Positions 11,455 through 43,800 of a stretch of DNA of 52,718 bases are shown here, one piece after another. The first letter of the stretch is position 1. Every line of letters starts with the position of its first letter. The stretch comes from Acidobacteriota bacterium (GTDB lineage Bacteria; Acidobacteriota; Terriglobia; Bryobacterales; Bryobacteraceae). Location of the stretch: positions 1 to 52,718 of the forward strand of contig JAPKZB010000038.1 of the NCBI GenBank assembly GCA_026393985.1. Reading direction: 5' to 3'. Below the pieces are notes generated by a model. The model saw only the letters and a list, made by a program, of their open reading frames with translations, ran no database searches and had not been told where the DNA came from. The translations under genes and the position numbers were made by a program.

Positions 11455-12624
11455 TTACGGGCGGACGCGGACCGGGCGGACGTAGATGGACTTGCGGCCG
11501 CTGGGGGGATTGAACCAGGAGTAGGTGATGAGAAAGCGGTCGGGGCCGAGGGGGACCAGGGAGGTGTAGCCGCAGGAGTCGGCCTGGGGCTTGGCGGGGT
11601 CGGGGACGGGGACGAGGGTTTGGGGGGGAGTCCAGGTTTGGCCGCCGTCGCGGCTGAAGCGGAGGTCGACGCCGGGGCGGCCGGAGGAGAGGACAAGGAT
11701 GCCGTTGGCGAGTTGGAGGAGGCGGGGGAGGACGCCGGTTTCAGTGAAGGGTTCCGGGGGGGACCAGGTTTGGCCGCCGTCGGTGGAGCGGGAGCGGTAG
11801 AGGGGGCCGACGCCGTGGCCGTCGGTGGAGCGAAGGACGGCGAGGAGGGAGCCGTCGGGAAGGAGTTCGAGGGCGGGTTCGGTGAAGCCGTCGCGGCGGC
11901 GGTCGGGTTCGTTGTAGAGGATGTGGCCGATTTTTTGCCAGGTGCGGCCGTCGTCGGTGGAGCGGTAGGAGGCGGCGGAGGTGTAGGGGACGGGGAGCTG
12001 GCTCGCGTGGTAGTAGGGATACGTCAGGGCGATGAGGGAGCCGTTGGGGAGGCGCTTCATATCGCCCCACCAGATTTGGGGGACGAGGCCGCCGGTGGAG
12101 TAGCGGAGGGCTTGGGGGTCGTCGAGGGTTTGGGATTGGGTGCGCCAAGCGCCGTTTTCGAAGCGCTCGAAGAAGATCTGGCGGAGGGCGGGAGGCATTT
12201 GGAGGAGGGGATAGAGCTGAAAGGGGGTGCCGTAGCTTTGGCGTTCGGCGACGGGGGGCGGGAGGGAGACGGAGGCGAGGGGCGTGGCGGCGACGGTGGC
12301 GGTGCGGAGCCACTGGCCGGAGGGGAGGGCGAGGCCGTAGGGGATTTGGGCGGCGCGGGTGGGTTGGAGGGTCCAGGTGCGGCCGTGGTTGCGGGAGAGG
12401 AAGAGCTGGCGGGGTTGGCCGTAGGAGGCGGCGGAGTCGGGGGAGGTGTGGACGGAGAGGAGGAGGAGGCCGCGGGGGCCGGTTTCGAGGGTGGGAAACT
12501 GCCAGCGGCCCCAGCGTTTTTCACCGGGGGGACCCTGGGCGACGAGACGGGCGGGGCCGAGTTCGACGCGGAGGTCGGCGGCGGGGAGGACGGCGACGGC
12601 GAGAATGGCCAGGAGAGGGCGCAT
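11455..12624 (-). CDS. exported sialidase-like (BNR/Asp-box) propeller protein
   Basis: 389 residues. The signal peptide MRPLLAILAVAVLPAADLRV supports the ATG at 12622-12624 over longer readings. At least four Asp-box repeats can be seen: SRNHGRTW, STDDGRTWQ, STDGGQTWS and SRDGGQTWT, each on a blade of a six-bladed sialidase fold. An exo-alpha-sialidase or a related glycan hydrolase is the family name, but many such proteins act on other sugars or only bind, and I did not find a complete arginine triad. It is first in an apparent operon with two PepSY membrane proteins. Confidence 0.85.
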   Translation of the reverse strand: MRPLLAILAVAVLPAADLRVELGPARLVAQGPPGEKRWGRWQFPTLETGPRGLLLLSVHTSPDSAASYGQPRQLFLSRNHGRTWTLQPTRAAQIPYGLALPSGQWLRTATVAATPLASVSLPPPVAERQSYGTPFQLYPLLQMPPALRQIFFERFENGAWRTQSQTLDDPQALRYSTGGLVPQIWWGDMKRLPNGSLIALTYPYYHASQLPVPYTSAASYRSTDDGRTWQKIGHILYNEPDRRRDGFTEPALELLPDGSLLAVLRSTDGHGVGPLYRSRSTDGGQTWSPPEPFTETGVLPRLLQLANGILVLSSGRPGVDLRFSRDGGQTWTPPQTLVPVPDPAKPQADSCGYTSLVPLGPDRFLITYSWFNPPSGRKSIYVRPVRVRP

Positions 12625-12706: not shown

Positions 12707-14263
12707 ATGGCTAACGGGAACAAGCGTGGATTGGGACGCCGGGAGATGATGCGGGGCGCGGCATTGTTCGGCGGGGGCGCGGCGGCGCTACCGGCGGCCG
12801 GGGCGCCCGCGGCGGCGGCGACGCCGGACGTCTACACGAAATTGGGCGTGGAGCCGTTCATCAACGCGACGGCGACGCTGACGATCAACGGGGGGTCGCG
12901 GCTGCTGCCGGAGGTGATTGCGGCGATTGAGCAGGCGTCGCATTTCCACGTGAACATGGACGAGTTGATGGAGAAGGCCTCGGCGCGGCTGGCGGAGCTG
13001 TTGGGGGTGGAGTGGGGGATCGTGACGGCGGGGGCGGCGGCGGCGTTAACCCACGCGACGGCGGCGTGCATTGTGGGCAGCGACCCGGAGAAGATGCAGC
13101 AGCTGCCGGATTTGCGGGGGTTGAAGAACCAGGTGATTTTCCCGAAGGAGTCGCGGAATGTGTACGACCAGGCGACGCGGGCGCTGGGGGTGGAGGTGGT
13201 GGAGGTGAGTTCGGCGGCGGAGCTGGAGGCGGCGATTGGGCCGCGGACAGCGATGATTCAGATTCTGGGCCAGCATTTCGGGAAGGCGAAGTTTGGCTTG
13301 GAGCAGGTGGCGCCGGTGGCGCAGAAGGCGGGGGTGCCGATTCTGGTGGACGCGGCGGCGGATTATCTGATGGCGCCGAATCCTTACTTGGCGCGGGGGG
13401 CGTCGCTGGTGGCGTACAGCGGGGGGAAGATTTTGCGGGGGCCGTCGACGGCGGGGCTGCTGATTGGAAGGAAGGACCTGGTGCGGGCGGCGTGGGCGAA
13501 CTCGGCGCCGCACCATGCGATTGGGCGGGCGATGAAGGTGAGCAAGGAAGAGATTGTGGGGATGGTGACGGCGGTGGAGTCGTTCCTGCAGCGGCGGGAT
13601 TTAAAGGCGGAGTATGCGGAGTGGGAGCGGTGGTACGGGGAGATCAGCGCGGCGGTGACGCAGACGGCGGGGGTGACGACGAAGGTGAATCCGCCGGCGC
13701 AGGGCGGACCGTTTCCAACGCTGACAGTGAGCTGGGATGAGAAGCGGGTTGGGTATACGGCGGGGGAGGTGGGGCGGATGCTGGCGACGGGGAAGCCGCG
13801 GATTATGACGCACGCGGCGGGGGAGGGATCTTCGTTTGTGATCCGGCCGGTGTCGCTGCGGCCGGGGGACCATTTGGCGATTGCGGCGCGGTTATCGGAG
13901 ATATTCCGGGGGGCGCCGGCGGGGAAGGAGAAGCGGGCGGCGGCGGCGCCGGCGGGGGATTTGACGGGGCGTTGGGAGGTGGAGGTGCGGTACCAGACGG
14001 GGTCGGCGCGGCATAAGCTGTTTTTGCAGGCGCGGGGGAATACGGTGACCGGGACGCATATGGGGTGGGCGAACGAGGGGCGGCTGCGGGGCGGGATTGA
14101 CGGGGCGGAGGTTTCGCTGCGGTCGACGCTGGCGGCGGGCGCGCAGGCGCTGCATTACCACTTTTCGGGCAAGCTGGCGGGGAATGAGATGGCGGGGAGT
14201 GTGGACCTGGGCGAGTACGGAAAGGCGACGTGGACGGCGACGCGGGCGGAGGAGAAGGCATGA
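12707..14263 (+). CDS. Tat-exported SelA-like PLP enzyme with C-terminal beta domain
   Basis: 518 residues. A twin-arginine signal (GRREMMRGAALFGGG) leads into a fold-type-I PLP enzyme of the SelA/D-glucosaminate-6-phosphate ammonia-lyase (DgaE) group: FINATATLTINGGS, VDAAADYLMAP (PLP-ring Asp near 215), and SGGKILRGPSTAGLL with the Schiff-base lysine near residue 241. From about residue 435 an extra domain of about 80 residues (DLTGRWEVEVRYQTG ... GTHMGWANEGRLRGG) looks like a small beta sandwich/lipocalin-like add-on. Export through Tat fits an enzyme that folds around its cofactor in the cytosol. It overlaps the next gene by 4 bp (ATGA). An ammonia-lyase or transferase acting in the periplasm is inferred; the substrate is unknown. 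Confidence 0.85.
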   Translation: MANGNKRGLGRREMMRGAALFGGGAAALPAAGAPAAAATPDVYTKLGVEPFINATATLTINGGSRLLPEVIAAIEQASHFHVNMDELMEKASARLAELLGVEWGIVTAGAAAALTHATAACIVGSDPEKMQQLPDLRGLKNQVIFPKESRNVYDQATRALGVEVVEVSSAAELEAAIGPRTAMIQILGQHFGKAKFGLEQVAPVAQKAGVPILVDAAADYLMAPNPYLARGASLVAYSGGKILRGPSTAGLLIGRKDLVRAAWANSAPHHAIGRAMKVSKEEIVGMVTAVESFLQRRDLKAEYAEWERWYGEISAAVTQTAGVTTKVNPPAQGGPFPTLTVSWDEKRVGYTAGEVGRMLATGKPRIMTHAAGEGSSFVIRPVSLRPGDHLAIAARLSEIFRGAPAGKEKRAAAAPAGDLTGRWEVEVRYQTGSARHKLFLQARGNTVTGTHMGWANEGRLRGGIDGAEVSLRSTLAAGAQALHYHFSGKLAGNEMAGSVDLGEYGKATWTATRAEEKA

Positions 14264-15486
14264 GACTAGCGGCGGCGTTAGTCATTTGCACGGGGATGCT
14301 GGGGGCGCAGCCGCGCTACGACCTGCTGATCCGGGGCGGGCATGTGCTGGACCCGGGGAACGGGATTAACGGGGTGATGGATGTGGCCGTGGCCGGCGGG
14401 AAGATTGCGCGGGTGGCGGCGGGGATTGCGCCGGGCGAGGCCAAGAAGGTGATTGAGGCCAAGGGGCTGTACGTGACGCCGGGGTTGATTGACCTGCATG
14501 CGCACGTGTTCGGCTATATGGGCTCGATCCGGCCGGATGATTCGGCGCTGCCGGCGGGGACGACGACGGTGGTGGACGCGGGGGGGGCGGGTTGGCGGAC
14601 GTTTGAGGAGATGCTCGAGCGGGTGATCCAGCCGGCGAAGACGCGGGTGCTGGCGCTGATCAATATTGTGGGGCACGGGATGATTGGTCAGTCCTTTGAA
14701 GACAACGTGGAGGACATGGACCCGGCCAAGACGGCGGCGAAGATTGCCGAACGGCGGCCGTATATTGTGGGCATCAAGACGGCGCACTTTGGGGGTTATG
14801 GCTGGGCGGCGGTGGATGCGGCGGTGGCGGCGGGTAAGTTATCGAATACGCCGGTGATGGTGGATGATAAGATTCTCACGCTGACCGGGCGGACGAGTAA
14901 GGAGAAGTTACTCGAGCGGATGCGGCCGGGAGATATGCATACCCACGTGTTCAATGACCGGCAGCTTGAGATGCTGAACCGGGCGAACGGGAAGCTGCAG
15001 CCGTGGGTGCTGGCGGCGCGGGAGCGGGGCGTGAAGTTTGATTTAGGGCACGGGGCGGGGAGCTTTTTGTGGCCGGTGGCGGCGAAGGCGCTCGAACAGG
15101 GGTTTTATCCGGACACGATTTCGACGGATCTGCATTCGTCGTCGATCATGCTGCCGGAGTCGGATATGCCGAATTGTATTTCGAAGCTGATGAGCTTGGG
15201 GATGCCGCTCGAGGAGGCGATGGTGCGGTCGACGGTGAATCCGGCCAAGGCGATTGGGTTGTATCCGGAGATTGGGACGCTGGGCGAGGGGCGGGTGGCC
15301 GATGTGGCGGTATTTACGCTGCGGGAGGGGTTGTTTGCGTTTAAGGACGCGTGGCATAACAAGCAGATGGGGAGTAAGCGGCTGGAGGCGGTGTTGACGG
15401 TGCGGGCGGGTGAGTTAGTTTATGACCGCGATGGGCGCGGGTTTCCGGAGTGGACAAAGGCCGGGGCTTACGAGGTGATTCCGTGA
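14260..15486 (+). CDS. exported amidohydrolase (dihydroorotase-like)
   Basis: 408 residues starting at the ATG that overlaps the upstream stop. The signal peptide MRLAAALVICTGMLGAQ is clear. All metal ligands of the binuclear amidohydrolase site are present: HxH in LIDLHAHVFG (80, 82), the bridging lysine in YIVGIKTAHFG (173), HTH in GDMHTHVF (227, 229), His in FDLGHGAG (264) and Asp in ISTDLHSSS (290). It matches the group beside SelA-like genes in other bacteria (Enterococcus EF_0837 type), whose partners act on amino-sugar acids or acylated amino acids. A hydrolase of a cyclic amide or N-acyl compound delivered to, or made by, the neighbouring PLP enzyme is inferred. It overlaps the following paralogue by 4 bp. 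Confidence 0.88.
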   Translation: MRLAAALVICTGMLGAQPRYDLLIRGGHVLDPGNGINGVMDVAVAGGKIARVAAGIAPGEAKKVIEAKGLYVTPGLIDLHAHVFGYMGSIRPDDSALPAGTTTVVDAGGAGWRTFEEMLERVIQPAKTRVLALINIVGHGMIGQSFEDNVEDMDPAKTAAKIAERRPYIVGIKTAHFGGYGWAAVDAAVAAGKLSNTPVMVDDKILTLTGRTSKEKLLERMRPGDMHTHVFNDRQLEMLNRANGKLQPWVLAARERGVKFDLGHGAGSFLWPVAAKALEQGFYPDTISTDLHSSSIMLPESDMPNCISKLMSLGMPLEEAMVRSTVNPAKAIGLYPEIGTLGEGRVADVAVFTLREGLFAFKDAWHNKQMGSKRLEAVLTVRAGELVYDRDGRGFPEWTKAGAYEVIP

Positions 15487-16562
15487 AGGTTTGGGGACGG
15501 TTGGCATTGGCGGCGGTGCTGGCGGGATGGCCGGCGGGGGCGCAGGAGGTTTTTGACCTGATCTTGAAGGGCGGGCGGGTGGTGGACCCGAAGAACGGGC
15601 GGGACGGGCGGATGGACATCGGCATCCGGAAGGGGCGGATCGGGAAGATTGCGGCGTCGATTCCGGCGGTACAGGGGCGGAAGGTGGTGGATGTGGGCGA
15701 CTACATCGTGACGCCAGGGCTGATTGATCTGAACGCGAATTTCGATATCCGGAGGGGAGCGAAAGGGGTGAACCCGGACCATAACGAGCTGCGGGCGTGC
15801 GTGACGACGGCGGTGGAGGGGGGGAACGTGGACGCGGCGGCGTTTGCCGAGTTCAAGACGAAGGTGATTGACGACGTGAAGACGCGGGTGCTGGTGTTTT
15901 TGGCGGCGGATGGGAACGGGGAGGCGGTGGCGCGGCAGCATCCGGAGATTGTGGTGGGCTTCCGGGCGGGGGCGAACGGGGCGGAGAGCGCGGTGCGGGC
16001 GGCGGAGTTGACGAAGACGGTGGTGCTGGGTGAAGGGCCGGGGCTGCGGGCGGGGGATATTCAGACGGGGTTTTACCGGAGCGGGAGCCGGCCGGCGGCG
16101 GCGAAGGGGGTGGTGCAGGATTTGGGGCACGGGGCGGCGGGATTCTGGTTCCGGGTGGCGGCGCCGGCGGTGAAGCAGGGGCGGCTGCCGGATACTTTGT
16201 CCACGGGGCTGGACGCGGAGAGCGTGATGCTGCCGCGGGCGACGATGACGAACGTGATGACGAAGATGCTGGCGTTGGGGGCGCCGCTGGACGGGTTGAT
16301 TGCGCGGGCGACGGTGAATCCTGCGCGGGCGCTGCGGCGGCCGGAGTTGGGATCGCTGACCGAGGGCGGGGTGGCGGACGTGGCGGTGCTCGAGACGCGG
16401 GCGGGGTCGTTCGGCCTGCTGGACGCGGGGCACGCGCGGCTGACGGCGACGCGGGAGGTGCGGTGCGTGATGACGGTGCGCGCGGGGGCCGTGGTATGGG
16501 ACTCCGAGGGGCTGAGCGTGCGGCACTGGATGGACGCCGGGCCGTACTCGAACTTCAAGTAA
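15483..16562 (+). CDS. amidohydrolase paralogue lacking its metal ligands (pseudoenzyme)
   Basis: 359 residues, translated from GTG at 15483 within a GTGA overlap; signal peptide MKVWGRLALAAVLAGWPAGA. The fold matches the preceding gene along its length (GLIDLNANFDI, DLGHGAAGFW, NPARALRRPELGSLTEGGVA), but the site is gutted: HxH became NxN (84, 86), the bridging lysine aligns with Arg 161, the HTH pair became QTG (194-196), and STD became STG (242). Only the His of DLGHG (216) remains. The frame is open with normal codon use, so it is probably kept for a non-catalytic job such as binding ligand or pairing with the active paralogue. Recent decay is the alternative, but no indels or stops are seen. 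Confidence 0.85.
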   Translation: MKVWGRLALAAVLAGWPAGAQEVFDLILKGGRVVDPKNGRDGRMDIGIRKGRIGKIAASIPAVQGRKVVDVGDYIVTPGLIDLNANFDIRRGAKGVNPDHNELRACVTTAVEGGNVDAAAFAEFKTKVIDDVKTRVLVFLAADGNGEAVARQHPEIVVGFRAGANGAESAVRAAELTKTVVLGEGPGLRAGDIQTGFYRSGSRPAAAKGVVQDLGHGAAGFWFRVAAPAVKQGRLPDTLSTGLDAESVMLPRATMTNVMTKMLALGAPLDGLIARATVNPARALRRPELGSLTEGGVADVAVLETRAGSFGLLDAGHARLTATREVRCVMTVRAGAVVWDSEGLSVRHWMDAGPYSNFK

Positions 16563-16566
16563 TGAG

Positions 16567-17013
16567 TTAGTCGACGTAGGCGATGCAGTCGATCTGGAGG
16601 AGTTGGCCGGGTCGGCGGAAGCCGGTGGTGCCGAAGTAGGAGCGGGCGGGGCGGTCTTTGAGGAAAAAGGTGTTGTAGACCTCGTTCATGGCGTCCCAGT
16701 TTTTTTCGGGGTCGACGAGGGAGACCTGGACTTTGAGGACGTTTTCGAGGGAGGAGCCGGCTTTGGCGAGGGACTCCTTCATGATGGTGAGGGCGTCGGC
16801 GGTTTGTTCGCGGATATCGCCGGCTTGGGGGCGGCGTTCGGGGTACCAGCCGCCGATGCCGCTGAGGAAGAGGAGGTTGCCGGAGCGGATGGGTCCGCCG
16901 GCGACCTGTTTTTTGGGGGACCAGGAGGATTTGGGTTGGGCGGAGAGGGCGGAGGCGCCGGCGGCGCCGAGGAGGAGAGCGCGGCGGGCTTGGGATTTGC
17001 TTTTGGGTTCCAT
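16567..17013 (-). CDS. Tat-exported RidA-family protein
   Basis: 148 residues. A twin-arginine-like leader (SQARRALLLGAAGASALSAQ) precedes a complete YjgF/RidA domain: GNLLFLSGIGGWYPE, QTADALTIMKESLAKAGSSL, VLKVQVSLVD, and RPARSYFGTTG with the substrate-binding arginine. RidA hydrolyses enamine/imine intermediates, typically those made by PLP-dependent dehydratases. Its stop is 4 bp from the stop of the convergent amidohydrolase paralogue, so it is not in the same transcript, but it shares the compartment of the PLP enzyme nearby. Export of RidA is unusual and supports a link. Confidence 0.87.
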   Translation of the reverse strand: MEPKSKSQARRALLLGAAGASALSAQPKSSWSPKKQVAGGPIRSGNLLFLSGIGGWYPERRPQAGDIREQTADALTIMKESLAKAGSSLENVLKVQVSLVDPEKNWDAMNEVYNTFFLKDRPARSYFGTTGFRRPGQLLQIDCIAYVD

Positions 17014-17524: not shown

Positions 17525-19880
17525 TCAAGGGAATTCCCCGGCACAGCGGAACCCGATATAGCTGAACCGGAGCGCAGGTACGTTACCGTAACGGCTCGAC
17601 ACGCGGACGAGCGCCGGAATGAGGATCCAGGAGCCGCCCCGCAAGACTTTGTTCTCGCTGTCGAAGTCAGAAGCGGTCCAATCGTAGACGTTACCGAGCA
17701 TGTCGTACAACTGCCAGTTATTCGGATCTTTGCTTTTTACGCGGGCGGGGCCATCCGTTTTGCTAGAGACAGCGATCCGGTCGAGTTCACCGTAAGCCTC
17801 TCCGGTGGTTCCGGCGCGAGCGGCGCGCTCCCACTCCTCTTCGGTGGGGAGCCGCAGACCGCCGAGTTCGCAGAACGTTTTGGCTTCAAACCAGGTGACG
17901 GAGTGCATGGGTTTGTCGTCGCCCGCATACTCCGCCAACGGCTGCGACTTCATAACCGCGCGGAAGGCTTGCTGGGTGACCTCGGTCTGGCCCAGCCAGA
18001 AGCCGGAGGCGAAGCCGTTGGGGATGAAGACGTAGGGCAGGTTGTGTTTGGCGTTTACCCGGACACCGGCCAGCCGGTTGCGGGCGTCGTGGGCCCGATC
18101 CCGCAAGGTGGGTCCCGCGACCAGCAGGAGCAGCGCCAGGAGCGTGGCGGCGACGGCCACGCGGATCATCGTCTCGCGCCGCCCGCTCGCGGCGAGGAAG
18201 CGGTCGACGACAGTTGGCGGCCGCGGTAGAGGCGGTCCCCGGTTGGCTGCGTGTGCCAGCGTTCGGCGTCGCGGTCGATCTCGCGGCCCAGGAGAAGATC
18301 CTCGCGGCCCTTGTCGAGCCAATCCCGCATCCGGGGCCACTCGCGAATGAGCGTTTCGTGGGCGATGGCGGCGGGCTGGTCCGCGCCGGGGGGAGCGTCG
18401 CCGAGGGTGATGAGGCGCTCCTGGGCCAGCACCTGGACCACCGCGGCGGCGCCCGGGCCGAGCGCTTCGAGCTTGCTTTTGGGGACGCGGCGGGCGCTGT
18501 CGGCGCGGTCCTCGCCCAGGGTGGTCAGTTCGACGAAGATGCGGCGGGCGAGGTCGCGCTCGGCGCCGGTTTGCAGTTTTTCCCGCAAGACATCGTCCGC
18601 GTGCTTTTGGACGGCGCCTTTTAGACGGCCAATGGCGTCATAGTCGGCAAAGGTGGGCGGGCGACCCGGGCACTGTTTCCACAGCCGGTAGAGGACGTGT
18701 TCGAGCAGTGCCAAGCCGCCGGGTTCGTCGCCGACCTCTTCGATCATCGTGCCGGCCAGACCGGGATCGATGGCGAGGCCGGCGAGTTGGGCGGGTTTGC
18801 GGATTACCTCGAGAAGCCGTGCGCCGGAGAGGCGGGGGAGGAGGTAGTGTTGGCGGAGCAGATCCCAGATCGGCGGCAGAGGGCGAAGAAGTCGATGCGG
18901 AAGGTGACGACGACCTGCAGCCGGGAGTGCGGGCGCTGGGCGGCGCGGAGGACCACGTTGAGAAAGGGAGTGGGATCGGCGGCGAGGGTGAAGAGTTCTT
19001 CGAACTGGTCGATGAAGAGGAGCTGGCGGGAGCCGGGCGGCAGGGCGAGGGCGGCGAGGGCATCGCAGAGGGCTTCCGGGCCGGGGTGGCCGGAAGGCGG
19101 GGAGAGGAAGCGGTGGCCGGTGGCGATCGCTTCGCCATTTTGAGTGATCGTGGGCTCCGGAAGAAACTGGGGCAGGGCCCGGGCTAGGGCGTCGAGCGGC
19201 TGGTCGCCGGGTTGGAGGGTGGCGATGCGCCATTCGTCGTGGCCGGCGCGGCCGCGGTGGAGCGCGGGGATGAGGCCGGCGCGGACGAAGGAGGATTTGC
19301 CGGCGCCGGAGTCGGCGACGATGGGCAGGAAGCGGTCGCCGCGGCGGAGGCGTTCGAGCACGGCGGCCACGTCCGGGTCGCGCCCGAAGAAGAGATGGGC
19401 GTGTTCGGCTTCGAAAGTGTTCAGCCCGCGGAACGGCGCTTCGTCCGGGGCGAGGACGTTGACGCGCTCGGGCGGGGCGGCGAGGATGGCGGCTGCGATC
19501 TGCTGGATGATGGCGCGGTCGGGGTTGCGCCAGTCGGGCAGGAGCGGCGACTGGTATTGGCGGAGGAAAGGGGGGAGGGCCTGTTCGGTAGCTTCGCCGA
19601 GCAGGAGCGGGATGAGCGCGTACTCTGGCCTATCCGTGTTGCGGACGAGGGCGTAGCGGACTTCGCGCTCCACCCAGCGGCGGACGCCGGAGGGGCCGAC
19701 GAGGACGAGGAAGTGGGTGGAGGCTTCGAGCGCCGCCTCAAGGGCGGGCAGCCACTCCTGGCCGTCGGTCAACTGTTCCAGATCGAGCCAGACGTCCAGA
19801 CCAGTTTGGCGCAGGTGCTGGGCGACGGCACGGGCGGCGGGGCCATCCTGCGAGGCGTGGCTGAGAAAGACGGTGGGCAT
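17525..19880 (-). pseudogene. TIR - nSTAND1 NTPase - TM - FGE/sulfatase-modifying-factor-like fusion, two frameshifts
   Basis: About 785 residues if repaired. TIR domain (1-135: VFLSHASQD, DVWLDLEQL, WVEREV with the candidate NADase glutamate). nSTAND1 P-loop NTPase (from about 148: FRGLNTFEAEHAHLFFGRD, Walker A DSGAGKSS at 190-197, Walker B LLFIDQFEE at 287-295). Membrane helix (VAVAATLLALLLLVAG). C-terminal SUMF1-like C-type-lectin fold (FWLGQTEVTQQAF, LRLPTEEEWERAARAG, DMLGNVYDWT, VLRGGSW, GFRCAGEFP). The FGE active-site cysteines after RGGSW are absent, so formylglycine formation is not expected; ligand sensing is more likely. The frame shifts at about 18871-18886 (after TFRIDFFALCR) and near 18212 (YRGRQL to VVDRFLAASG); each equals loss of one base modulo 3. 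It is either inactivated or carries assembly errors. Confidence 0.78.
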
Positions 19881-20063: not shown

Positions 20064-23000
20064 ATGCAATTCTTCGCCAAACTAGGAGTGGCCGCCGCGC
20101 TGTGCAGCGTCGCGGCCTTCGCACAAATTGGCACTTCTACACTGACCGGCCGCGTCACCGATTCGACGGGCGCCCTGGTGCCCAACGTTAGTGTAACCGT
20201 CGTGCAGCCGAGCACGAACTTCACGTCCACGACCACGACCAATGCGGAAGGTATCTTCCGTGTTCTTTCGCTCCAGCCGAGCATTTACCGCGTAACCTTC
20301 GAATTATCCGGATTCAAGAAAGTAATCCGGGAGAGTGTCGAACTCCGCACGGGCGACACGCTGGCGATCGACACCGTCATGCAGGTCGGTCAGGTGACCG
20401 AATCGGTGGAGGTGACCGGCGCGCTGCCGGCCCTCGAAACCGAAACGTCCGCCACCGGCGCTGTGCTGGCCGGCGATGTGCTTTATGATTTGCCGCTCTA
20501 CCAGCGCTTTGTCAATTCGACGATGAATCTGGTGCCGGGTATGACGACGGGCGGCTACGCTTACGGCGGCTCGCTGGGCGCCTACCACCTGGCCGGCCAG
20601 CGCGCCGGCGCCATCGGCATTTTTGAAGACGGCGTGAACGGCAACGACCAGCAGGGCGGCACCGAGACCACCAAGCCGATTCTGAACTCGGTGGCCGAAG
20701 TGAAAGTGATCACGACCCTGCCGCCGGCCGAATATGGCCACTCGGCGGGCGGCGTGATCAACGCAGTGAAGAAGACCGGCACCAACGAACTGCACATGAT
20801 GGGTTCCTGGTACGGACGCACCCGGCGAATGCAGCACCGGTTGTTCTTTGACCGGACAAAGACTTCGCAGGCGACGGCGACGGCGCCGAACGGCGTGCCT
20901 TCGTTCTTCATGATGCCGGACGCGTCGATCTCCGGGCCGGTAGTGATTCCGAAGATCTATAACGGCAAGAACAAGACCTTCTTCTTCTTCGGGTTCCAGC
21001 GCCTGCACGAGAAGAAGGTGGCACAGGTGGACGCCTCGGTCCCCAGCCTCGATATGCGTCGCGGCGATTTCAACTTCCCCGGGGCGAATGCGATCTTCGA
21101 TCCCGCGACGACGCGCCTCGTCAACGGCGTCTGGCAGCGCGACCCATTTGCCGGCGGCGTGATTCCCCAGAGCCGGATCGACCCGGTGGCGCGGAAGGTG
21201 CTGGAATTCGACCCGTGGCAACTGCCCAACCGGGCCGGCAGCTTCATTTCGACCGGAGCGGCAGGCAACTACCTGGCGAACGAACTGGCGCAGGTGTATC
21301 TGAACGACTACAACTACCGCTTCGATCATCAGTTCAGCACGGCGCTCAAGGCCTACTTCTCGTGGACCGACAACAAGTACCTTCCCGGCCTGCTGCGGCC
21401 GTGGAACATCCGCCCGGACCGCGGCGAGTTTGACGGCTCGGCAGGCGGTACGGCGCCTTCGCGGAACCAAAATATGTCGATGGGCAAGACGTGGATCATC
21501 TCGCCGACGGTGGTGAACGACGCGCGCGTCGGTTACAACCGCCGCTGGGCGCAGCGGACTTCGCCCTCGTTCCAGAACGGCTGGGGCCAAAAGCTGGGCA
21601 TTACCAACCTGAACTCCGACCTGATGCCGGCGTTCGGGAGCGGCGACCGGAACAACCCGTCTTCGATGTACGGTCTCACGGGCACGACCCCGACGCAGAC
21701 GGTAAACGAGACGATCTCGTTCCGCAATGACCTGTCGATCATTCGCGGCACGCACGCCTTCAAGACCGGCTACGAGATTCTGCGTTTCCGGTTGAACACG
21801 GCGACGCTGGCCAACCCGGTGCAGTTCAACTTTGCGAACTCGACCGTGGGTCTGCAGGCCAACGGGGCGCCGGTGCCGAACACGGGCAGCCCGTTTGCGG
21901 GCTTTCTGACCGGCTATGTCACCTCGGCGACCTTCCTGACGGAGTTGACGAGCTGGTTGCCGCGGAGCAACATCCACAGCTTCTATTTCCAGGACGACTG
22001 GAAGATTACGCCCACGCTGACCGCCAACATCGGCCTGCGGTATTCGAACGAAAGCGCGTTTCAGACCAAATATGGGCTGATGAGCCAGTTTGATCCGAAC
22101 GCCAACGACCCGCTGACGGGCAACAAGGGGGCGGTGATTCATCCCAAGGGCACGCTGACCAACGGCGACCACAACAACTTCAACCCCCGCCTGGGCCTGG
22201 CGTGGCATCCGCTCGAAAAGTGGGTGTTCCGCGGCGGCTTCGGCTTCTACACGGTAGACGTCAAGTTCCCGTCGGCTCGCGACCAGTACGACGAGTTCGT
22301 GGGAACGGCGGTGCAGGAAGCGCTTCCCGGCAACCCGACGCCGGTTTACCAGATCAGCCGTGGCTCGGCGCCGAGTGCGCCGGTGGTGCTGCCCGATGGT
22401 TCGAGCCCGTTCCGTGGGACGAACTTCAGCGGCCGGAACGTTTCGATGTGGGATCCCAAGCTGCGGAACCCCTACGTGATGAACTGGAACTTCTCGATTC
22501 AAAACGAGATCGCCCGGGACTACACGATCGAACTCAGCTATCAGGGTTCGGGCGGCGTGGGGCTGATTGAACGCTGGGAATTGAACACGTTCCCGGTGGA
22601 TCTGTTTGCTAACGATCCCGTGCAACGGGACCGGGTATTTGCGGCATCGCAGAACTTCCGGCCTTATCCGCACTTCGGCAACATTGCCATGCGTTCGAAC
22701 TTCGGCCACTCGACGTTCCACTCCGGTACGGCGAAGCTTGAAAAGCGCATGTCGCGCGGCTTGTTCTTCTCGACGTTCTACACGTTCTCGAAGACGCTGG
22801 CGAGCGCCGATACCGATAACTCCGGCGGCGGCGTGGCGCCGATTCAGAACCGGAATCTGGAGAAAGCCCGGGCCGGTTACGACCGCAACCATCGCTACAT
22901 TGCGACGGTGGACTACGATCTGCCGTTCGGCAAGGGGCAGCGGTGGATGTCGAGCAGCCGGATGGGCAACGCCATATTCGGCGGATTGACCCTATCGACG

Positions 23001-23489
23001 ATTCAGACGATGGAGACCGGCAACCCGCTGAACTTCACGTTTGCCAACAGCCAGTTCAACTACTATCCGGGATTCGCCGGCAACCGCCGTCCGGACCTGG
23101 TTGGTAAGCCGGACTACGACTTCAGCAAGTGGAACAACGGCGGCGGCGACCGGTTTGTGACCAACAACCGGCCGGCGGTGATTGACATGAATGCGTTTGC
23201 CTATCCGGCGGCGTTCAAGGTCGGCAACGCCGGGCGGAACATTCTGACCGGTCCCAGCATGGCCTGGGCGCAGATCTCGGTGCAGAAGAACTTCATGATC
23301 AAAGAGAAGACGCGGGCGCAGATCCGTTGGGATATGCAGAACGCGTTCAAGACGTACAACTTCACCGGGCCGACGACGACCGTCGACTTCCGGAACCCGC
23401 AAACCTTCGGCAAGCTGACGGACGATCCGCGCACGGCATCGCTCGGCGGTCAGCCATTGATGAACGTAACGATCATGTTGCAGTTCTAG
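20064..23489 (+). CDS. Oar-like TonB-dependent receptor
   Basis: 1141-residue outer-membrane protein. Signal peptide MQFFAKLGVAAALCSVAAFA; ribosome site GGAGGG at 20052-20057 fixes the start. Carboxypeptidase-regulatory-like/CNA-B type domain (TLTGRVTDSTGALVPNVSVT ... NAEGIFRVLSLQPSIYRVTF), then a plug-like region (PLYQRFVNSTMNLVPGMTTG, GIFEDGVNGNDQQGG, VKVITTLPPAEYGHSAGGV), then a very long barrel with the ring-like IYNGKNKTFFFFGFQ motif common to acidobacterial Oar proteins, and the terminal aromatic LQF. The size is usual for this family. A consensus promoter lies upstream and an intrinsic terminator downstream, so it is monocistronic. The substrate (probably oligosaccharide or peptide) is unknown. 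Confidence 0.92.
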   Translation: MQFFAKLGVAAALCSVAAFAQIGTSTLTGRVTDSTGALVPNVSVTVVQPSTNFTSTTTTNAEGIFRVLSLQPSIYRVTFELSGFKKVIRESVELRTGDTLAIDTVMQVGQVTESVEVTGALPALETETSATGAVLAGDVLYDLPLYQRFVNSTMNLVPGMTTGGYAYGGSLGAYHLAGQRAGAIGIFEDGVNGNDQQGGTETTKPILNSVAEVKVITTLPPAEYGHSAGGVINAVKKTGTNELHMMGSWYGRTRRMQHRLFFDRTKTSQATATAPNGVPSFFMMPDASISGPVVIPKIYNGKNKTFFFFGFQRLHEKKVAQVDASVPSLDMRRGDFNFPGANAIFDPATTRLVNGVWQRDPFAGGVIPQSRIDPVARKVLEFDPWQLPNRAGSFISTGAAGNYLANELAQVYLNDYNYRFDHQFSTALKAYFSWTDNKYLPGLLRPWNIRPDRGEFDGSAGGTAPSRNQNMSMGKTWIISPTVVNDARVGYNRRWAQRTSPSFQNGWGQKLGITNLNSDLMPAFGSGDRNNPSSMYGLTGTTPTQTVNETISFRNDLSIIRGTHAFKTGYEILRFRLNTATLANPVQFNFANSTVGLQANGAPVPNTGSPFAGFLTGYVTSATFLTELTSWLPRSNIHSFYFQDDWKITPTLTANIGLRYSNESAFQTKYGLMSQFDPNANDPLTGNKGAVIHPKGTLTNGDHNNFNPRLGLAWHPLEKWVFRGGFGFYTVDVKFPSARDQYDEFVGTAVQEALPGNPTPVYQISRGSAPSAPVVLPDGSSPFRGTNFSGRNVSMWDPKLRNPYVMNWNFSIQNEIARDYTIELSYQGSGGVGLIERWELNTFPVDLFANDPVQRDRVFAASQNFRPYPHFGNIAMRSNFGHSTFHSGTAKLEKRMSRGLFFSTFYTFSKTLASADTDNSGGGVAPIQNRNLEKARAGYDRNHRYIATVDYDLPFGKGQRWMSSSRMGNAIFGGLTLSTIQTMETGNPLNFTFANSQFNYYPGFAGNRRPDLVGKPDYDFSKWNNGGGDRFVTNNRPAVIDMNAFAYPAAFKVGNAGRNILTGPSMAWAQISVQKNFMIKEKTRAQIRWDMQNAFKTYNFTGPTTTVDFRNPQTFGKLTDDPRTASLGGQPLMNVTIMLQF

Positions 23490-27427: not shown

Positions 27428-30400
27428 TCAGAACTCGAACTTGAGCGCGAGTTGAAGACTCCGATTTTCGCCGACAGTGGAGGTGATGCGGCCGGCGGTG
27501 GGAGAACCGATGGACGCGTTGGGGAACCCGAAGTACGGGGTGTTGAACAGGTTGTAGGCCTCAAAACGGAACTGCGCGTTGAACCGTTCGCTGGGGCCGA
27601 AGCGGTTGTTCTTCACAAACGAAGTGTCGAAGTTTACGTTGCCGGGCGAATAGAGAATGCCGCGGCCGACGTTGCCGTAGGTAAAGGCCGGCGGGGCGGC
27701 GAAGCAGCCCGGATCGAACCAGCGGTCCGGGACCGGGTTATCGAGTTTGCCGGAGCAAGCCAGGCGGTTCGGCCAGCTCGGAGCACCGTTATTGACGCCG
27801 GCGGCGAGGCCGGGGGTGAAGGGACGGCCGGTGGTGAGCGTGGTGATGCCGCTCATCTGCCAGCCACCGATGACGCTGTTCACCACGCGGTTGCCGGCGT
27901 CCATCTTCTTGCCCTTGCCGAACGGCAGGTCGTAGACGTAGCTGAAGACGGCGCGGTGGCGGACGTCGAAGCCTGAAGGGCCGCGGTTACAATCGAGACA
28001 GGTGACCGTCTGCGGGCCACCGGAGGCGCCGCCGCCGCTGCCGACCGAGCCGGTGTAGTCGAGCGACTTGCCCCAGGTGTAAGCGGCCAGGAACTGCAGG
28101 CCGTTTTCATAGCGCTTGGTGGCCTTCAACTGCATGCTGTGGAAGGAGCTGCGGGCGCGCCATTCCACGAAGAACATATTGTTGACGTTGTTCAGCGGCT
28201 GCAGGAGCCGGCGAGGAGCCAGGGCGCCGGGGCCGGGCTGGACTTCGTTCGGGTTGTAGGCCTGCGCGAGGTTCATCCCGGTGGAGCCGGCATAGTCGGC
28301 CTCGATCATGAGCGAGTTGGTCAACTGGCGCTGGAGGTTGGCCGTCCAGGTCTGCATGTAGGGCGTCCGATTCAGGAAAGAATGGCCGTTGATGCGGGGG
28401 GACGGGTTGAGGCCGTTCAGTTCCGCGGTAGTCCGGGGCTTGACGGCCTGAGGCAGGGGGAAGGGGTTATCGATCGTCGCCACGCCCTGCATGCCGACCG
28501 GGAAATCGGGGAAGACGAGCGACTGGGTGAAGAACGTGGGGATGTTGAGGCCGATCTGCCCGTTGGCGGTAACCGGATCGGGGAAGTAGACCAGGCTGTA
28601 ACCGGCGCGGATGATGGTTTTGCCGTTGCCGGTGATGTCGTAGGCCAGGCCGAGGCGGGGGCCGAGGTTTTTCCAGTTGGCCTGCTTGCCGGCGGTGCGC
28701 GAGACGCCGTTTTCCCCAGCGTAGATGACTCGCAGCTGGCCGAGATCAAAGTTGGGCAGACGGTCGTACTTTTCGGTTTCGGGCAGGAAGGCTTCGTGGC
28801 GGACGCCGATGTTGAGGGTCAGGCGGCGGCTGAGCTTGATGTCGTCCTGGAAGTAGAGCGAGTTCTCCCAGATGCGGAGATAGAAGGGTTCGAACAACCC
28901 GGAACGGTTGCCGCTGATCATGAAGCCGGTCAGCAGCGAGGCCGGGCCGAAGCCGGAGGTGGCCGGGCTGGCCGGGTTGGCCGTGAACGCGCGGTTGAAG
29001 TTCATGTTGCCGCGAACCGCTTCGTTGACGAAGGGTTGGGCGTCGCGCCGGACGATGTGCCAGCCGAACTTGAGGGTGTGCCGGCCGACGGTCCAGTTCC
29101 AGGCGCTGTCGAGCTGGTAATGGGTCTGCAGGGGATTGACCGGCAGGAAGGCCGGGCCGCCGGACAGACCGGTGATATCGGCGATGTTAATGGTCGGGAT
29201 ACCAGAAGACTGGCGGTTCAGGTTGATGTTCCGAATCCCCAGCGAGGAGGCGGCGTTAATGCCAATATCCTGCTGCGTGGTAATGGGGTTCGTGCGGGCA
29301 AAGCCGGCACGGAACTCATGGAGCAGGTTGGGCTTGAAGATCCGAGTCCAGTTGAAGGCCGAACCCTGGGTGGTAAGGATGGTGTCCTGGAGGCCGGCGA
29401 CGAACGGTCCGAGGGTGAACCGGGAGGCGGCGTCGGCGGGGGTGGGCAGACAGCAGTTGGACTGGCCCTGGGGGGCCTGCAGGTTGTAGTTATTGTAGGT
29501 GTAGCGGAAGAAGATGTTGTCTTTGGCGCTGACCACGTGGTCGAAACGGCCGGTGTAGACGTTGTCCGCCACGCGGCGGTTCGGCACGCTGGTAAAGTTG
29601 TCGAACAGGCCGTTGACACGGCCGGGGGCGTTGGCCGTCGGATAGATGCTGAGCACGTTGCGGCCCACCGGGTTGATGGCGGAGGCCGGCATGATGTTGC
29701 CGGGGAAGGGGTCCCGCACGGGGGTGTTCGAGCCGGCGACGGAACGGGTGCTGCGGGGGTCGAAGATGGTCAGATTCGGCCCGCCGGCGGCGATCAACTG
29801 GCTGAAGTCGCCGTTGCGCATGGGCGCAGTGGGAACCGTGTTGACCGTGGCAATACCGCGCGCGGTGCGGAGGCCGGCGTAGTCAAAAAAGAAGAAGGTC
29901 TTGTTCTTGCCGTTATAGAGTTTCGGAATAATCACCGGACCGCCAACGGCGACGCCGAACTGATTCTGCCGGAAGACCGGTTTGCGCTGGTTAGCCGGGG
30001 CAAAGACGTTGCGGGCATCGAGGACGTGATTGCGATGGAACTCAAAGACGTTGCCATGGAACTCGTTCGAGCCGGATTGCGTCGAGATGGAGACGACGCC
30101 GGCGCCGCGGCCGAACTCGGCGGAGAAGACGCCGGTCAGGGTTTTGAACTCGCGCACCGATTCCACGGAGGGCGCGACGACGACCGTATTGAAGGTGTAT
30201 TCGTTGTTATCGATACCATCGACGAGCCAGGCGTTGGTGTTGGCGCGGCTGCCGAGCGCGTTGAAGTTAGAGGGGCCGCGCGGGTTGAACGTGGAGGCGC
30301 CGGAGAGATTCTCTCCGGCCTGTCCGGGGGTAACGCCGGGGTTGAGATAGACGAGCTGCGCGAAGTTCCGGCCGTTGAGCGGCAGTTCGCGCACAGCGCG

Positions 30401-30814
30401 GGTGCCGATCACTTCGCCGAGTTCGGCCGATTCGGAGCGGACGAGGGGGGCGGCGGCGGTCACCTCTACGGTTTCCGACACATTGCCGACGGCCAGTTGG
30501 AAGTCAGCGCGAGCCTTCTGGTCAACTTCGAGGGGCAGATTCTGCTGCACGCCCTTCTTGAAGCCGGCCTTTTCGACCGAGATCGTGTAGATGCCGGGCA
30601 CGAGGAACGGCACGTTGAAGGTGCCGGTTTCGTCGGTAACGGTGCGGCTGGTGGTATTCTTATTAACTTCGAGAACGGAGACGCTGGCGCCGGCTACGGC
30701 GGCGCCGGACGAATCGGTGACGGTGCCTAAAATCGTGCCGGTGGTTACCTGGCCATGAGCAGCGACCAAGGCGAAAACCACAAAGAGGAACAGACGCAAA
30801 AGTGAGTGATACAA
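27428..30814 (-). CDS. Oar-like TonB-dependent receptor
   Basis: 1128-residue outer-membrane receptor. Signal peptide MYHSLLRLFLFVVFALVAA; carboxypeptidase-regulatory-like domain (GTILGTVTDSSGAAVAGASV ... GTFNVPFLVPGIYTISVEKA); plug (RAVRELPLNGRNFAQLVYLN, WLVDGIDNNEYTF, EFKTLTGVFSAEFGRGAGVV); the KLYNGKNKTFFFFDYAG motif; long barrel ending LALKFEF. The start is TTG at 30812-30814; AGGAG on the minus strand lies about 8-9 nt away, and the signal peptide begins at once, so the rare codon is well supported. It faces a short amidohydrolase gene across 75 bp. A terminator separates it from the receptor kinase. Substrate unknown. Confidence 0.9.
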   Translation of the reverse strand: MYHSLLRLFLFVVFALVAAHGQVTTGTILGTVTDSSGAAVAGASVSVLEVNKNTTSRTVTDETGTFNVPFLVPGIYTISVEKAGFKKGVQQNLPLEVDQKARADFQLAVGNVSETVEVTAAAPLVRSESAELGEVIGTRAVRELPLNGRNFAQLVYLNPGVTPGQAGENLSGASTFNPRGPSNFNALGSRANTNAWLVDGIDNNEYTFNTVVVAPSVESVREFKTLTGVFSAEFGRGAGVVSISTQSGSNEFHGNVFEFHRNHVLDARNVFAPANQRKPVFRQNQFGVAVGGPVIIPKLYNGKNKTFFFFDYAGLRTARGIATVNTVPTAPMRNGDFSQLIAAGGPNLTIFDPRSTRSVAGSNTPVRDPFPGNIMPASAINPVGRNVLSIYPTANAPGRVNGLFDNFTSVPNRRVADNVYTGRFDHVVSAKDNIFFRYTYNNYNLQAPQGQSNCCLPTPADAASRFTLGPFVAGLQDTILTTQGSAFNWTRIFKPNLLHEFRAGFARTNPITTQQDIGINAASSLGIRNINLNRQSSGIPTINIADITGLSGGPAFLPVNPLQTHYQLDSAWNWTVGRHTLKFGWHIVRRDAQPFVNEAVRGNMNFNRAFTANPASPATSGFGPASLLTGFMISGNRSGLFEPFYLRIWENSLYFQDDIKLSRRLTLNIGVRHEAFLPETEKYDRLPNFDLGQLRVIYAGENGVSRTAGKQANWKNLGPRLGLAYDITGNGKTIIRAGYSLVYFPDPVTANGQIGLNIPTFFTQSLVFPDFPVGMQGVATIDNPFPLPQAVKPRTTAELNGLNPSPRINGHSFLNRTPYMQTWTANLQRQLTNSLMIEADYAGSTGMNLAQAYNPNEVQPGPGALAPRRLLQPLNNVNNMFFVEWRARSSFHSMQLKATKRYENGLQFLAAYTWGKSLDYTGSVGSGGGASGGPQTVTCLDCNRGPSGFDVRHRAVFSYVYDLPFGKGKKMDAGNRVVNSVIGGWQMSGITTLTTGRPFTPGLAAGVNNGAPSWPNRLACSGKLDNPVPDRWFDPGCFAAPPAFTYGNVGRGILYSPGNVNFDTSFVKNNRFGPSERFNAQFRFEAYNLFNTPYFGFPNASIGSPTAGRITSTVGENRSLQLALKFEF

Positions 30815-40869: not shown

Positions 40870-43800
40870 CTAGAATTCAAAGCGCATACTGAGCTGTATC
40901 TGGCGCCCGGTGCCGCGCGTCGACGTGATCCGCCCGAAGTCGCCCCGGCCCCGCACCGCGGCCGGGACGGTGAAGTTCGGCCGGTTCGGCAGGTTGTAGA
41001 AGTCGCTCCGGAACAGCAACCCGTACCGCTCCCGGATCGCCCACCGCTTATTCACCGACAGGTCCACGTTCACCTGACCCGGTCCGAAACCCAGCGCCCG
41101 CGCCGCGTTGCCGAAAGCGCCTACCGCCGGGCCCGCGAAACACGCGGTATTGAACCACTGATTCAACGCCTCCCCCCGCGTCCTTCCCCCGGCCAACCGG
41201 GGCTCGCACGTCAGGTTCGGCCGCGGACTGCCGGCAAAGGTGTTGGTCAGGTTCGTCTGCTCAATCGCCCCCCACGGCGCCCCCGAGAAGAATTCGGCGA
41301 TTGTTCCAAGGGACCAGCCGCCAACGATAGCGTTCCAGACAGGATGGCCCGGATCCACCGGCTTCCCCTTGCCAATCGGCAGTTCGTACACGCTCGAGCC
41401 GATGAACCGGTGCCGGATGTCGTTGCCCGAGTAAGAACGATCCAGGCTACGCAGTTCGGGGTGCGTATATCCATTCCCCTCGCCGCCCGCGAACTCGTTG
41501 CCGCCTTCGATGTTATCGAGAAACTTAGACCAGGTGTAGTTGGCGAGCAGATTGAATCCGTTCGCGTAGCGCCGTTCCACCTTCAGGTTCATCGCGTGGT
41601 AAGTGGAACTGCCCCAGTTCGGCGTCAACCGGTTCACCGCGTTGAATTGCGGGAACAGCCGCGCCGTCTGGCTCTGCACGGCCGGCCCGCGCCCGTTGAC
41701 CAGGGGAATCACGTTGATGTTCACCGCCGCGCCGCCGAGTTTGCGGCCCAGATTACCCAGATAGGCCGCCTCAAACAGCATGTTACCGGCCAGTTCCCGT
41801 TGCATCGTCAGGTTAACCTGCTGCGAGTAGCCGTTAACGTGGTTCTGCGCAATAAAGTCCGGCGCCGACCGCGGCGCCTGTCCGATACGAACAGCGCCCC
41901 AGCCCGGCCCGATCGGCTCCCGGGTAGCGGCCGGTAAACCGGACCGGAACAGAAAGGCCGGCGTCAGGCCGCCGTCCGGCGAAGTGAACGACGAGTTGAC
42001 CCCGAAACCCTGCGAAAGCGTGTTGACGACGGCGCCGAAGTAACTGCCGAGATAGTTGATCCCGTAGCCGCCGCGCACCACCGTCCGCGCCGCCGGCTTC
42101 CAGGCAAAGCCGAACCGCGGGGCCAGATTGTTGCGGTCGAACGGATGCGCATACTTACCAAGCCCGTCCCGGCCGGAAAAGGTAACCACCCCGGGCGTGC
42201 CCGACACCGGGTTCATCGCTGTCCCGTTGAACCCGCTCTGGCGGTTGTCGATCCGCTCCCAGCGCGGGGTATCGATCTCCCACCGCAGTCCCAGGTTGAA
42301 GGTCAGATTCTTAGTGACTTTCCAATCGTCCTGCACATAGACACCGTAGTAATCGGTGCGGGCCTCCAGCAGGTCCGGCTTGCTTTGCGCGGCGCTCGAG
42401 GTCCAGCCGAGGAGGAAGGCGGCCATGCCGCTGCGGGTGGCCCGGTCGTTAAACGTGAAGCTGCCGCCGCCTGACTGCGAAAACTCATCTTTGTTCAGCG
42501 AGTACCGCATTTCAAAGCCGGTCTTGAGGGTATGCTTCCCCCGAATCCAGGTGAGGTTATCCACCAGGTGATGCGTCAAAATCGGCGTTTGGATGCGCTC
42601 GTTCGGCGAAACGCTGAAGCCGGACTGGCCCGTCACGGCGATGATCGGGAACGCGGATTCGTCGACGCCCCGCAGTCCGATCTTTCCGTTGAAGCCGGAC
42701 CCGGCGCCGGCCGCCCGGTTGATGGCGAGACGCGTCGAATAGGCATACCGGACCTCATTGAGCAGCACCGGGGTGAAGTTATGCATCCACGAGCCGAGCG
42801 CCGCCTGCACTTGATTCTCGCGGATGCCCGCCCGCGTGTCGGCAATCCGGTCCGGGTAGGCGTTGGCGATGTCCTGCGGCGCCCGGATGAAGTTGTAGCG
42901 GCCGAAAATGCGGTCGTTATTGCCGAGGGCGTGGTCGATACGGGTGGTCAGCGAATCCTGCGTCAGCTTATCGGAAAGGTTCACGGTGTAATTGGCGCTG
43001 GGTGCCCGCGTCAGATCGGAGGCGACGTTAGCGGCCGGATACAGCGCGGTAAGTTGGCGCGCGATCGGATCAATGCGGCTCGCCGGAATTACGTTGCCAG
43101 GAAAGGGCTGCGCGCTGACCGGGTCGAGCACGGCCACGTCCCGGCGGTTTGAAAAATCCCCGTTGCGTTCGGGAGCGTGCGGCATAATGAGCCCCGAAAC
43201 GGTCACGCCGTCCCGCCGGCGCGCCCCTTCATAGTTGGCAAAGAAGAACATGCGGTCCTTGCGGATAGGCCCGCCGAAGGAGCCACCGAAGATGTTGTAG
43301 CGCAACGGCGCTTTCCGCGGGGCGAAAAAGGTCCGGGTATCGAGCACCTGGTTGCGCAGAAACTCATACGCCGCGCCGTGGTACTGATTGGTTCCGGACC
43401 GCGTCGTCATGAGGATGAGCCCACCGCCGGCCCGGCCAAACTCGGCGGAGAAGTTACTCATCTCCGCCTTGAACTCCTGCAGCGACTCGGCCGGCGGGTT
43501 CAGTTGTAACTGTGCCACACCCAGCGACATATTCTGCACGACGGCGCCATCGAGCTGCCACATCTGGTTCTGGCTCCGTCCGCCGGCCATTGAGAACATC
43601 GGCACCTGTTCGCCGCCCGTCTCGGAAGTAAACGTCACCGCGCCCAGCAGGCGCACCAGGCCCGCCGTCCGCCGGCTCTCGAGCGGCATGTTCAGCACCG
43701 TGGTTCTCTCAATCAACTGGCCCACCGAGGAGGTTTCCGATTCGAGCAGCGCCGCCTGCGCCTTGACCTCGACGGTCTCGGAGACGGCGCCGACGCTAAG

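Follow-up and report, generated by a model that had tools for sequence, protein, structure and literature searches.

The window analysed here is a contig of 52,718 nucleotides (JAPKZB010000038.1, assembly GCA_026393985.1) from an Acidobacteriota bacterium of the Bryobacteraceae. Its positions 12707 to 17013 contain a block of four genes, denoted A, B, C and R, which encode a pyridoxal phosphate (PLP) dependent enzyme, an amidohydrolase, a pseudo-amidohydrolase and a RidA-family protein, respectively, all with export-type leaders. We hold with moderate confidence that the block is an exported module for degradation of amino-acid-type compounds, in which B would be paired with the dead C, A would release an enamine, and R would hydrolyse it. 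Each of the families is known; the surprising parts are the eroded and, in some loci, fused partner of B, and a RidA with a leader of the twin-arginine translocation (Tat) type. The pseudo-amidohydrolase C is the most unusual part of the block.

The features are as follows; B' denotes a paralogue of B, and coordinates are those of the window.

12707..14263, plus strand: A, predicted exported SelA/DgaE-like PLP-dependent enzyme with an extra C-terminal domain T, 518 amino acids (profiles, PDB relatives)
12707..12823, plus strand: twin-arginine type leader of A (GRREMM...), read from the sequence; the RR pair is shared by the genus orthologues for which the leader was read
13274..13276, plus strand: codon for H190 of A, which aligns with His-162 of DgaE; the proton donor His-163 has no aligned counterpart
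13427..13429, plus strand: codon for K241 of A, the PLP lysine (SGGK)
13937..14248, plus strand: T, the C-terminal domain of A, about 100 amino acids; short stand-alone frames give T-like matches as well
14260..14263, plus strand: A-B stop/start overlap, 4 base pairs, ATGA
14260..15486, plus strand: B, predicted exported COG3964-type amidohydrolase/deacetylase with a complete metal site (NF006689, PDB relatives, ligands HHKHHD)
15483..15486, plus strand: B-C stop/start overlap, 4 base pairs, GTGA
15483..16562, plus strand: C, predicted exported pseudo-amidohydrolase that descends, in degenerate form, from the B' paralogue, GTG start (ligand loss, tree, omega, AlphaFold2)
16539..16559, plus strand: GPYSNFK tail at the C-terminal end of C, specific to the B'/C lineage (tail counts over B, B', C and fusions)
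16567..17013, minus strand: R, predicted exported RidA-family protein with a twin-arginine type leader and the PARS arginine kept (PF01042, orthologue alignment, co-occurrence profile)

The gene block and its conservation in the genus

All four genes are open reading frames, and R is convergent, with four bases between its end and the end of C. Together with the ATGA and GTGA overlaps, this agrees with the preliminary description of three plus-strand genes overlapping by 4 bp and followed by a convergent RidA gene. The leaders of A (GRREMMRGAALFGGGAAAL) and R (ARRALLLGAAGASALSA) are of the twin-arginine type, those of B and C have a Sec-like appearance, and export-type leaders of the block proteins are conserved across genera. 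The leaders were judged by eye throughout, with no signal predictor, and this reading coincides with the earlier one of four export-type leaders, two of them twin-arginine.

An orthologue of A, at 68–100% identity, is present in 10 of the 19 genus genomes. Some genomes were present twice, as a genome and as a named contig, and such copies were removed in the alignment of A-type sequences with DgaE described below; gene maps of the genus and of the neighbour loci came from a simple codon-usage caller of our own. The complete A-B-C set was read in nine of the 19 genomes, and in the tenth A-bearing genome (G002) the contig ends inside B. R orthologues (82–100% identity) occur in nine of the ten A-bearing genomes and in none of the nine others; the exception, G016, has a contig ending inside C. 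Out of eight genomes with a contig extending past C, R is convergent behind C in seven (the window's genome, G010, G007, G014, G011, G004, G003).

The ratio of nonsynonymous to synonymous rates (omega) was estimated with a simple Muse–Gaut (MG) codon model. The values are A, 0.047; B, 0.050; C, 0.068; and R, 0.016, which makes R the most conserved of the four. The conservation of C and R speaks against chance open frames.

The amidohydrolase B and its probable partner, the inactive C

The B protein passes the NF006689 model (383 bits, cut-off 371). Its PDB relatives are 8je0, 2ogj, 2ics and 8wzy, which we take to belong to COG3964. At six metal-ligand positions, presumably those common to the amidohydrolase superfamily, B has HHKHHD, as expected from the earlier claim of a complete active site, and C has NNRGHG. 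In C, the HxH motif has become NxN, K has become R, the beta5 H and the D have both become G, and the beta6 H is kept. Hence C, described preliminarily as ligand-free, has five of the six positions changed and retains one ligand. It fails NF006689 (223 bits against 371) and scores below the cut-offs of all families matched.

C folds well in AlphaFold2 (predicted local distance difference test, pLDDT, 82.5; predicted template modelling score, pTM, 0.84), forming a compact barrel. Its omega of 0.068 comes from nine sequences, with values of 0.09–0.15 for close C pairs and up to 0.40 for wider pairs; thus C is under purifying selection despite the lost metal site. The low omega and the folded model led us to reject the possibility of a decaying pseudogene.

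A tree of 61 amidohydrolases places the C sequences in one clade (support 100), which groups with ten intact B' (100); the B sequences are in a separate clade (100). Elsewhere in the order, other families have B' immediately after B, for example in A-A-B-B' or B-B'-B rows. Given this grouping, C is a degenerate B', and a recent duplication of the adjacent B is rejected. The preliminary description had called C a paralogue, which its amidohydrolase relationship bears out, and had given no explanation for the pseudo-amidohydrolase; its descent from B' is now read from the tree.

A scan of named genomes for relatives, of which the best 80 of 528 were kept, yielded 79 loci, mostly from the Acidobacteriota, with other phyla among the weaker matches. 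The B' and C genes in these loci mostly came along as neighbours rather than as scan matches. The 64 B hits are followed directly by B' in 31 cases and by a C-type gene in ten, and in ten more the partner is fused (51 of 64 downstream or fused). Among the remaining 13, five are at a contig edge, one is followed by its own split copy, and seven have neither B' nor C, three of these (L226, L227, L229) being the last gene of a B-B'-B row. The HHKHHD set is kept in 34 rows labelled B', including four single genes of other phyla (L239–L242). Ligand loss outside the genus clade is seen in L189, L195, L225, L212 and L216; on a quick tree, on which long branches meet, the loss of ligands as a whole needs three changes, two of them forced. 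At L215:2490-3620, the B' gene behind an intact B is broken over three frames, and R is still behind it.

Ten loci encode a B-B' fusion, that is, a single frame in which a remnant of B' comes after a complete B (L204, L205, L217, L218, L219, L224, L228, L234, L235, L236). The remnant keeps the N-terminal strands of the beta-sandwich and, in most cases, its C-terminal strands, and the barrel is mostly or wholly gone. On a quick tree of B, the fused state needs six changes, three of them forced by well supported branches. The fusions are at different stages of erosion; in L224, little of B' is left beyond the N-terminal strands and the tail.

The GPYSNFK-like tail is present in all ten fusions, in 33 of 39 B' rows and in eight of ten C, and is found in none of 54 B and none of 14 other amidohydrolases. 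Of the six B' rows lacking it, two are truncated at a contig end and four are the single genes from other phyla; the two C without it are truncated as well. The AlphaFold2 model of the L236 fusion has pLDDT 72.9 and pTM 0.72, with the remnant at 80–90, and a PDB search with this model gave only amidohydrolase-superfamily proteins among the matches listed.

In our reading, B would associate with B' into a heteromer. The contribution of B' would lie in its sandwich and tail, which would have allowed its active site to be lost. In the window, B and C are probably a catalytic/structural pair.

The PLP-dependent enzyme A

The A protein passes the SelA model PF03841 (24.5 bits, cut-off 22.8), is just below the cut-off of Aminotran_5, and stays below those of the DgaE models (165 against 600 and 178 against 385 bits). 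Its nearest relatives of known structure are of the DgaE type, the PDB relatives being 7lc0 (DgaE, 2e-35) and 8t7j. We aligned A-type sequences with DgaE in 34 rows, of which 23 are distinct once near-copies are removed. The PLP lysine and Arg-226 (DgaE numbering) are retained in all 23 distinct sequences and in all 34 rows. The arginines 301, 332 and 346 of the phosphate cluster are found in none of the 23 at any of the three positions, and 8t7j has all three. According to the accessible text of PMC9529869, a docked model of DGL puts Arg-226 close to the carboxylate and Arg-301, -332 and -346 close to the phosphate; the lysine is numbered 217 there, the SGAK lysine being 213 by the chain index of the structure used here. 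As the phosphate arginines are never kept in A, its substrate is predicted to be unphosphorylated, which would fit an exported enzyme. Given the low DgaE scores and the absence of these arginines, we do not consider A to be a true DgaE.

The same text (PMC9529869, seen in part) describes His-163 of DGL/DgaE as protonating the enamine, the H163A enzyme releasing it. All 23 distinct A-type sequences have a gap in the His-163 column, and the His-162 column contains H in 11 (including H190 of the A in the window), G in five, A in four and Y in three. An HH pair is seen in seven rows, all of them paralogues with no T tail. The apparent lack of a His-163 counterpart predicts enamine release, which would fit a co-exported RidA and may be the reason for a dedicated one; since the alignment loop is gapped, this is only suggestive.

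The T domain had no match in a Pfam search. Tailed SelA-like paralogues have multiplied in the family: among 121 family genomes, an even draw from the larger family, 70 contain one or more matches with E no higher than 1e-110, and G157 has six. In some of the searches of these genomes, including those for B and for the tailed enzymes, only the best 12 to 15 first-look candidates were scored in most genomes. The genome of the window contains one such paralogue at G000:C17:164851-166377 (L174).

The RidA protein R and its link to the proposed module

RidA proteins guard against enamines released by PLP enzymes inside cells. R passes PF01042 (66.2 bits, cut-off 27.3) and is below the cut-off of TIGR00004 (51 against 106). 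The PARS arginine, presumably the substrate-binding residue of the Rid family, is conserved in at least 90% of 29 orthologues. The SelA match of A and the PF01042 match of R are in line with the preliminary assignment of these two genes as SelA/DgaE-like and RidA.

Among the 121 family genomes, 22 have both R and B, none has R without B, three have B without R, and 96 have neither. By genus (76 genera) these counts are 15, 0, 3 and 58, a fairer comparison, as Fisher values ignore shared ancestry. B was called at E below 1e-140 and identity of at least 55%, a cut-off set after a gap had been seen in the hit lists. An arginine pair is present in the leader of every one of the 20 R genes read in other genera. 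In five genomes (G062, G083, G084, G093, G138), R adjoins A on the same strand, 27–55 bases apart by match coordinates.

The genome of the window encodes a second RidA with a twin-arginine leader, R2 (G000:C54:122179-122628, L024). A further tailed SelA-like enzyme is encoded within 120 bases of R2, on the same strand, in ten genomes (G131, G103, G101, G094, G142, G125, G089, G035, G086, G106); the leaders of the R2 orthologues were not read one by one. Hence two separate RidA lineages adjoin tailed SelA-like PLP enzymes. We rejected the idea that an exported RidA is unique to this block, as R2 is present in 85 of the 121 family genomes. One more RidA with a twin-arginine leader is encoded in the genome of the window at G000:C55:80376-80804 (L023).

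It had been considered beforehand that such a RidA might be equally common in unrelated contexts; what was found is R only together with B in the 121 genomes, and R and R2 as neighbours of PLP enzyme genes. The exported trio, resting on linkage, is well supported, with its export and chemistry predicted.

Proposed scheme, substrate and alternatives

In the proposed scheme, export, catalysis, the order of the steps and the complex are predicted, starting from the observed gene anatomy, motifs, co-occurrence, fusions and selection. B would be a metal-dependent deacylase that functions paired with C. The latter, once an enzyme and now catalytically dead, may be kept for its beta-sandwich and C-terminal tail, needed either for assembly of B or for completion of its active site. 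A, presumably exported by Tat in the folded state with its cofactor, would beta-eliminate water from a D-configured, unphosphorylated 2-amino-3-hydroxy acid, and would likely release the enamine, as it seems to lack the histidine protonating the latter in DgaE. The co-exported R would then hydrolyse the enamine to a 2-keto acid and ammonia.

Clues to the substrate come from genes recurring beside R, A or B in other genera. These are PIG-L deacetylases (eight loci, six distinct), a CBM9-cytochrome c protein (six loci, and three more with a shorter CBM9 form, two distinct) and quinoproteins (ten loci). In another Bryobacterales genome (L188:5835-16597), a quinoprotein, B, B', R, PIG-L, the CBM9-cytochrome c protein, a quinoprotein and A lie within approximately 11 kilobases. 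One quinoprotein passes the pyrroloquinoline quinone (PQQ) alcohol dehydrogenase model (492, cut-off 480), and its best score, below the cut-off, is on the acido-empty-quinoprotein model (564 against 650), so that its cofactor is uncertain. Diacetylchitobiose deacetylases are among the closest PDB relatives of PIG-L. In the 121 family genomes, a PIG-L orthologue with at least 70% identity (a cut-off chosen, as for B, once the gap between the matches was apparent) is present in 21 of 22 genomes with R and in five of 99 others; for the CBM9 protein, partial matches included, these numbers are 19 of 22 and eight of 99. The genome of the window has both orthologues, on other contigs.

The ong cluster of Pseudoalteromonas, encoding the deacetylase OngB, the PLP-dependent deaminase OngC and the RidA protein OngD, serves N-acetylglucosaminate (GlcNAc1A) from oxidised chitin (accessible text of PMC9537276). 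Given the carbohydrate-linked neighbours (PIG-L, CBM9) and the ong parallel, 2-amino-aldonates are favoured, and we tentatively guess the substrates to be 2-(acylamino)-2-deoxy-aldonates or 2-amino-aldonates from oxidised amino sugars. A fuller picture, which as a whole we consider doubtful, is that of a periplasmic oxidative pathway for amino sugar acids in the Bryobacterales: the quinoprotein and CBM9-cytochrome would oxidise the sugar end, PIG-L and B would deacylate, and A would eliminate water from the free 2-amino-aldonate and, having no proton donor, would by design leak the enamine to a dedicated Tat-exported RidA. The partner of B would have been worn down several times, from enzyme to pseudoenzyme to fused tail, only the beta-sandwich and the GPYSNFK tail being indispensable.

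The main alternative is that the same exported enzymes act on N-acyl D-amino acids or D-peptide fragments (e.g. N-acyl-D-serine or -threonine, cell-wall debris), with deacylation by B, elimination by A, and hydrolysis of the aminoacrylate by R. This seems rather unlikely, as the CBM9-cytochrome c protein and PIG-L, both carbohydrate-linked, track R in the 121 genomes. Still, COG3964 amidohydrolases are deacylases, and no carbohydrate gene was recognised directly beside the block in the window. According to the part of PMC9537276 that was accessible, D-serine and D-threonine are further substrates of OngC, the PLP-dependent member of the ong trio.

We consider it unlikely that C is an independent protein (e.g. 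a small-molecule binder), merely located downstream of B and forming no complex with it. The compact barrel of the C model and the highest omega of the four genes could be read in this way, but in most loci read B is followed by B' or C, and in ten an eroded B' is part of the same chain as B, an arrangement that maintains their contact. As the full barrel is not retained in the fusions, a function of the barrel pocket cannot be the common one for B' and C.

It is quite improbable that R only travels with A-B-C and mainly serves another exported system, formed by DUF1549/DUF1501-like or CBM9-quinoprotein genes: R adjoins a CBM9-quinoprotein pair in G026, G095, G128, G132 and G157, shares a locus with one in L188 and is flanked by DUF1549/DUF1501-like genes in four genus genomes, but there is no R without B in the 121 genomes, whereas the CBM9 protein is absent from three genomes with R, and same-strand R-A neighbours in five genomes are paralleled by pairs of R2 with another tailed enzyme in ten.

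Several observations weigh against the exported module with a B:C pair and an enamine-releasing A. The His-163 position is in a gapped loop of the alignment of A with DgaE, and H190 of A could serve instead. Moreover, OngC alone yields the keto acid and ammonia in vitro without a RidA protein (PMC9537276, accessible text). Three family genomes have B without R. The expected co-occurrence holds in part: linkage and profile tie R to B, but in the stretches read only nine of the 22 R genomes have R in the same locus as A or B, and in the other 13 it is beside neither. The R2 orthologues, used as a control, occur in their 85 genomes irrespective of B. In G015, R is located away from A-B-C, beside genes similar to those at 49163 and 50534 in the window, presumably a DUF1549/DUF1501 pair; R has such genes as neighbours in G011 and G004 too, and on the G002 contig it is next to one of the two. 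As to B' and C, four B genes are alone, with no B' (L193, L220, L221, L222; only 716 bases are available behind the B of L221). Intact B is partly built into the sample, since the scan patterns require intact metal-site motifs, and in the L236 fusion model the tail is not placed (pLDDT below 50). Finally, the PIG-L and quinoprotein genes are situated outside the window.

If the exported module is real, a Tat-type RidA beside exported PLP enzymes would extend the biology of RidA as an enamine guard to the periplasm, and the block would provide a clean test of whether an enzyme with no proton donor needs its own RidA. The series of intact pairs, pseudoenzyme pairs and one-chain fusions formed by B, B' and C would be a natural experiment on stripping a partner subunit to its essential parts and residues.

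Other features of the window

A BNR-repeat gene with an export-type leader (11455-12621, minus strand) is divergent from A and occupies the same place in G010 and G016. The region 17525-19880 on the minus strand looks like a broken or split multi-domain gene; it contains what we read from the sequence as a TIR-like and ATPase-like frame, then further frames, one of them presumably of the formylglycine-generating type. Three long, mutually similar proteins (20064-23489, 27428-30799, 40870-44109) are presumably carboxypeptidase-regulatory/TonB-type outer membrane proteins.

Comparison with known systems

In a literature search with partial coverage and few subscription papers, this system was not found in work on exported RidA or on COG3964, and nothing was found on pseudoenzyme amidohydrolase heterodimers, on PvdN and periplasmic PLP enzymes, or on Acidobacteria with RidA and twin-arginine export.

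B shares the fold and the complete metal site with the COG3964 amidohydrolases of known structure (2ogj, 2ics, 8je0, 8wzy), some of which, we presume, have SelA-like neighbours. It differs from them in having an export leader and, usually, a second copy in tandem or fused, sometimes dead. A belongs, together with DgaE/DGL, which performs beta-elimination via an enamine, to a common SelA-like family, with the same PLP lysine and carboxylate Arg-226, but has an export leader and the C-terminal T domain, and lacks the three phosphate arginines and a counterpart of His-163. R has the PF01042 signature and PARS arginine of the Rid family; it differs in the Tat-type leader and a private set of motifs (GIGGWYPERR, TGFRR.GQLLQ.DCIAY), and in its TIGR00004 score. 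A term look-up in the Rid family survey PMC4433059, covering part of the text, gave no mention of periplasm or signal peptide.

A precedent for a retained inactive chain is the pseudo-dihydroorotase (pDHO) of Pseudomonas aspartate transcarbamoylase, an amidohydrolase-superfamily protein required by the catalytic chain, according to the accessible text of PMC7053772. As proposed for C, an inactive chain of this superfamily is kept as a partner; however, pDHO serves an unrelated catalytic chain, whereas C would pair with its own active paralogue, in a lineage that was eroded or fused more than once.

The closest parallel to B, A and R is the ong cluster, where an amidohydrolase-type deacetylase, an ammonia-eliminating PLP enzyme and a RidA are likewise encoded together, the accessible text (PMC9537276) describing OngD as essential in vivo, with its role not established, and making no mention of a dead paralogue. 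Unlike the block considered here, the ong proteins are predicted to be cytoplasmic, OngC is of fold type III rather than SelA-like, and OngB belongs to the D-aminoacylase group.

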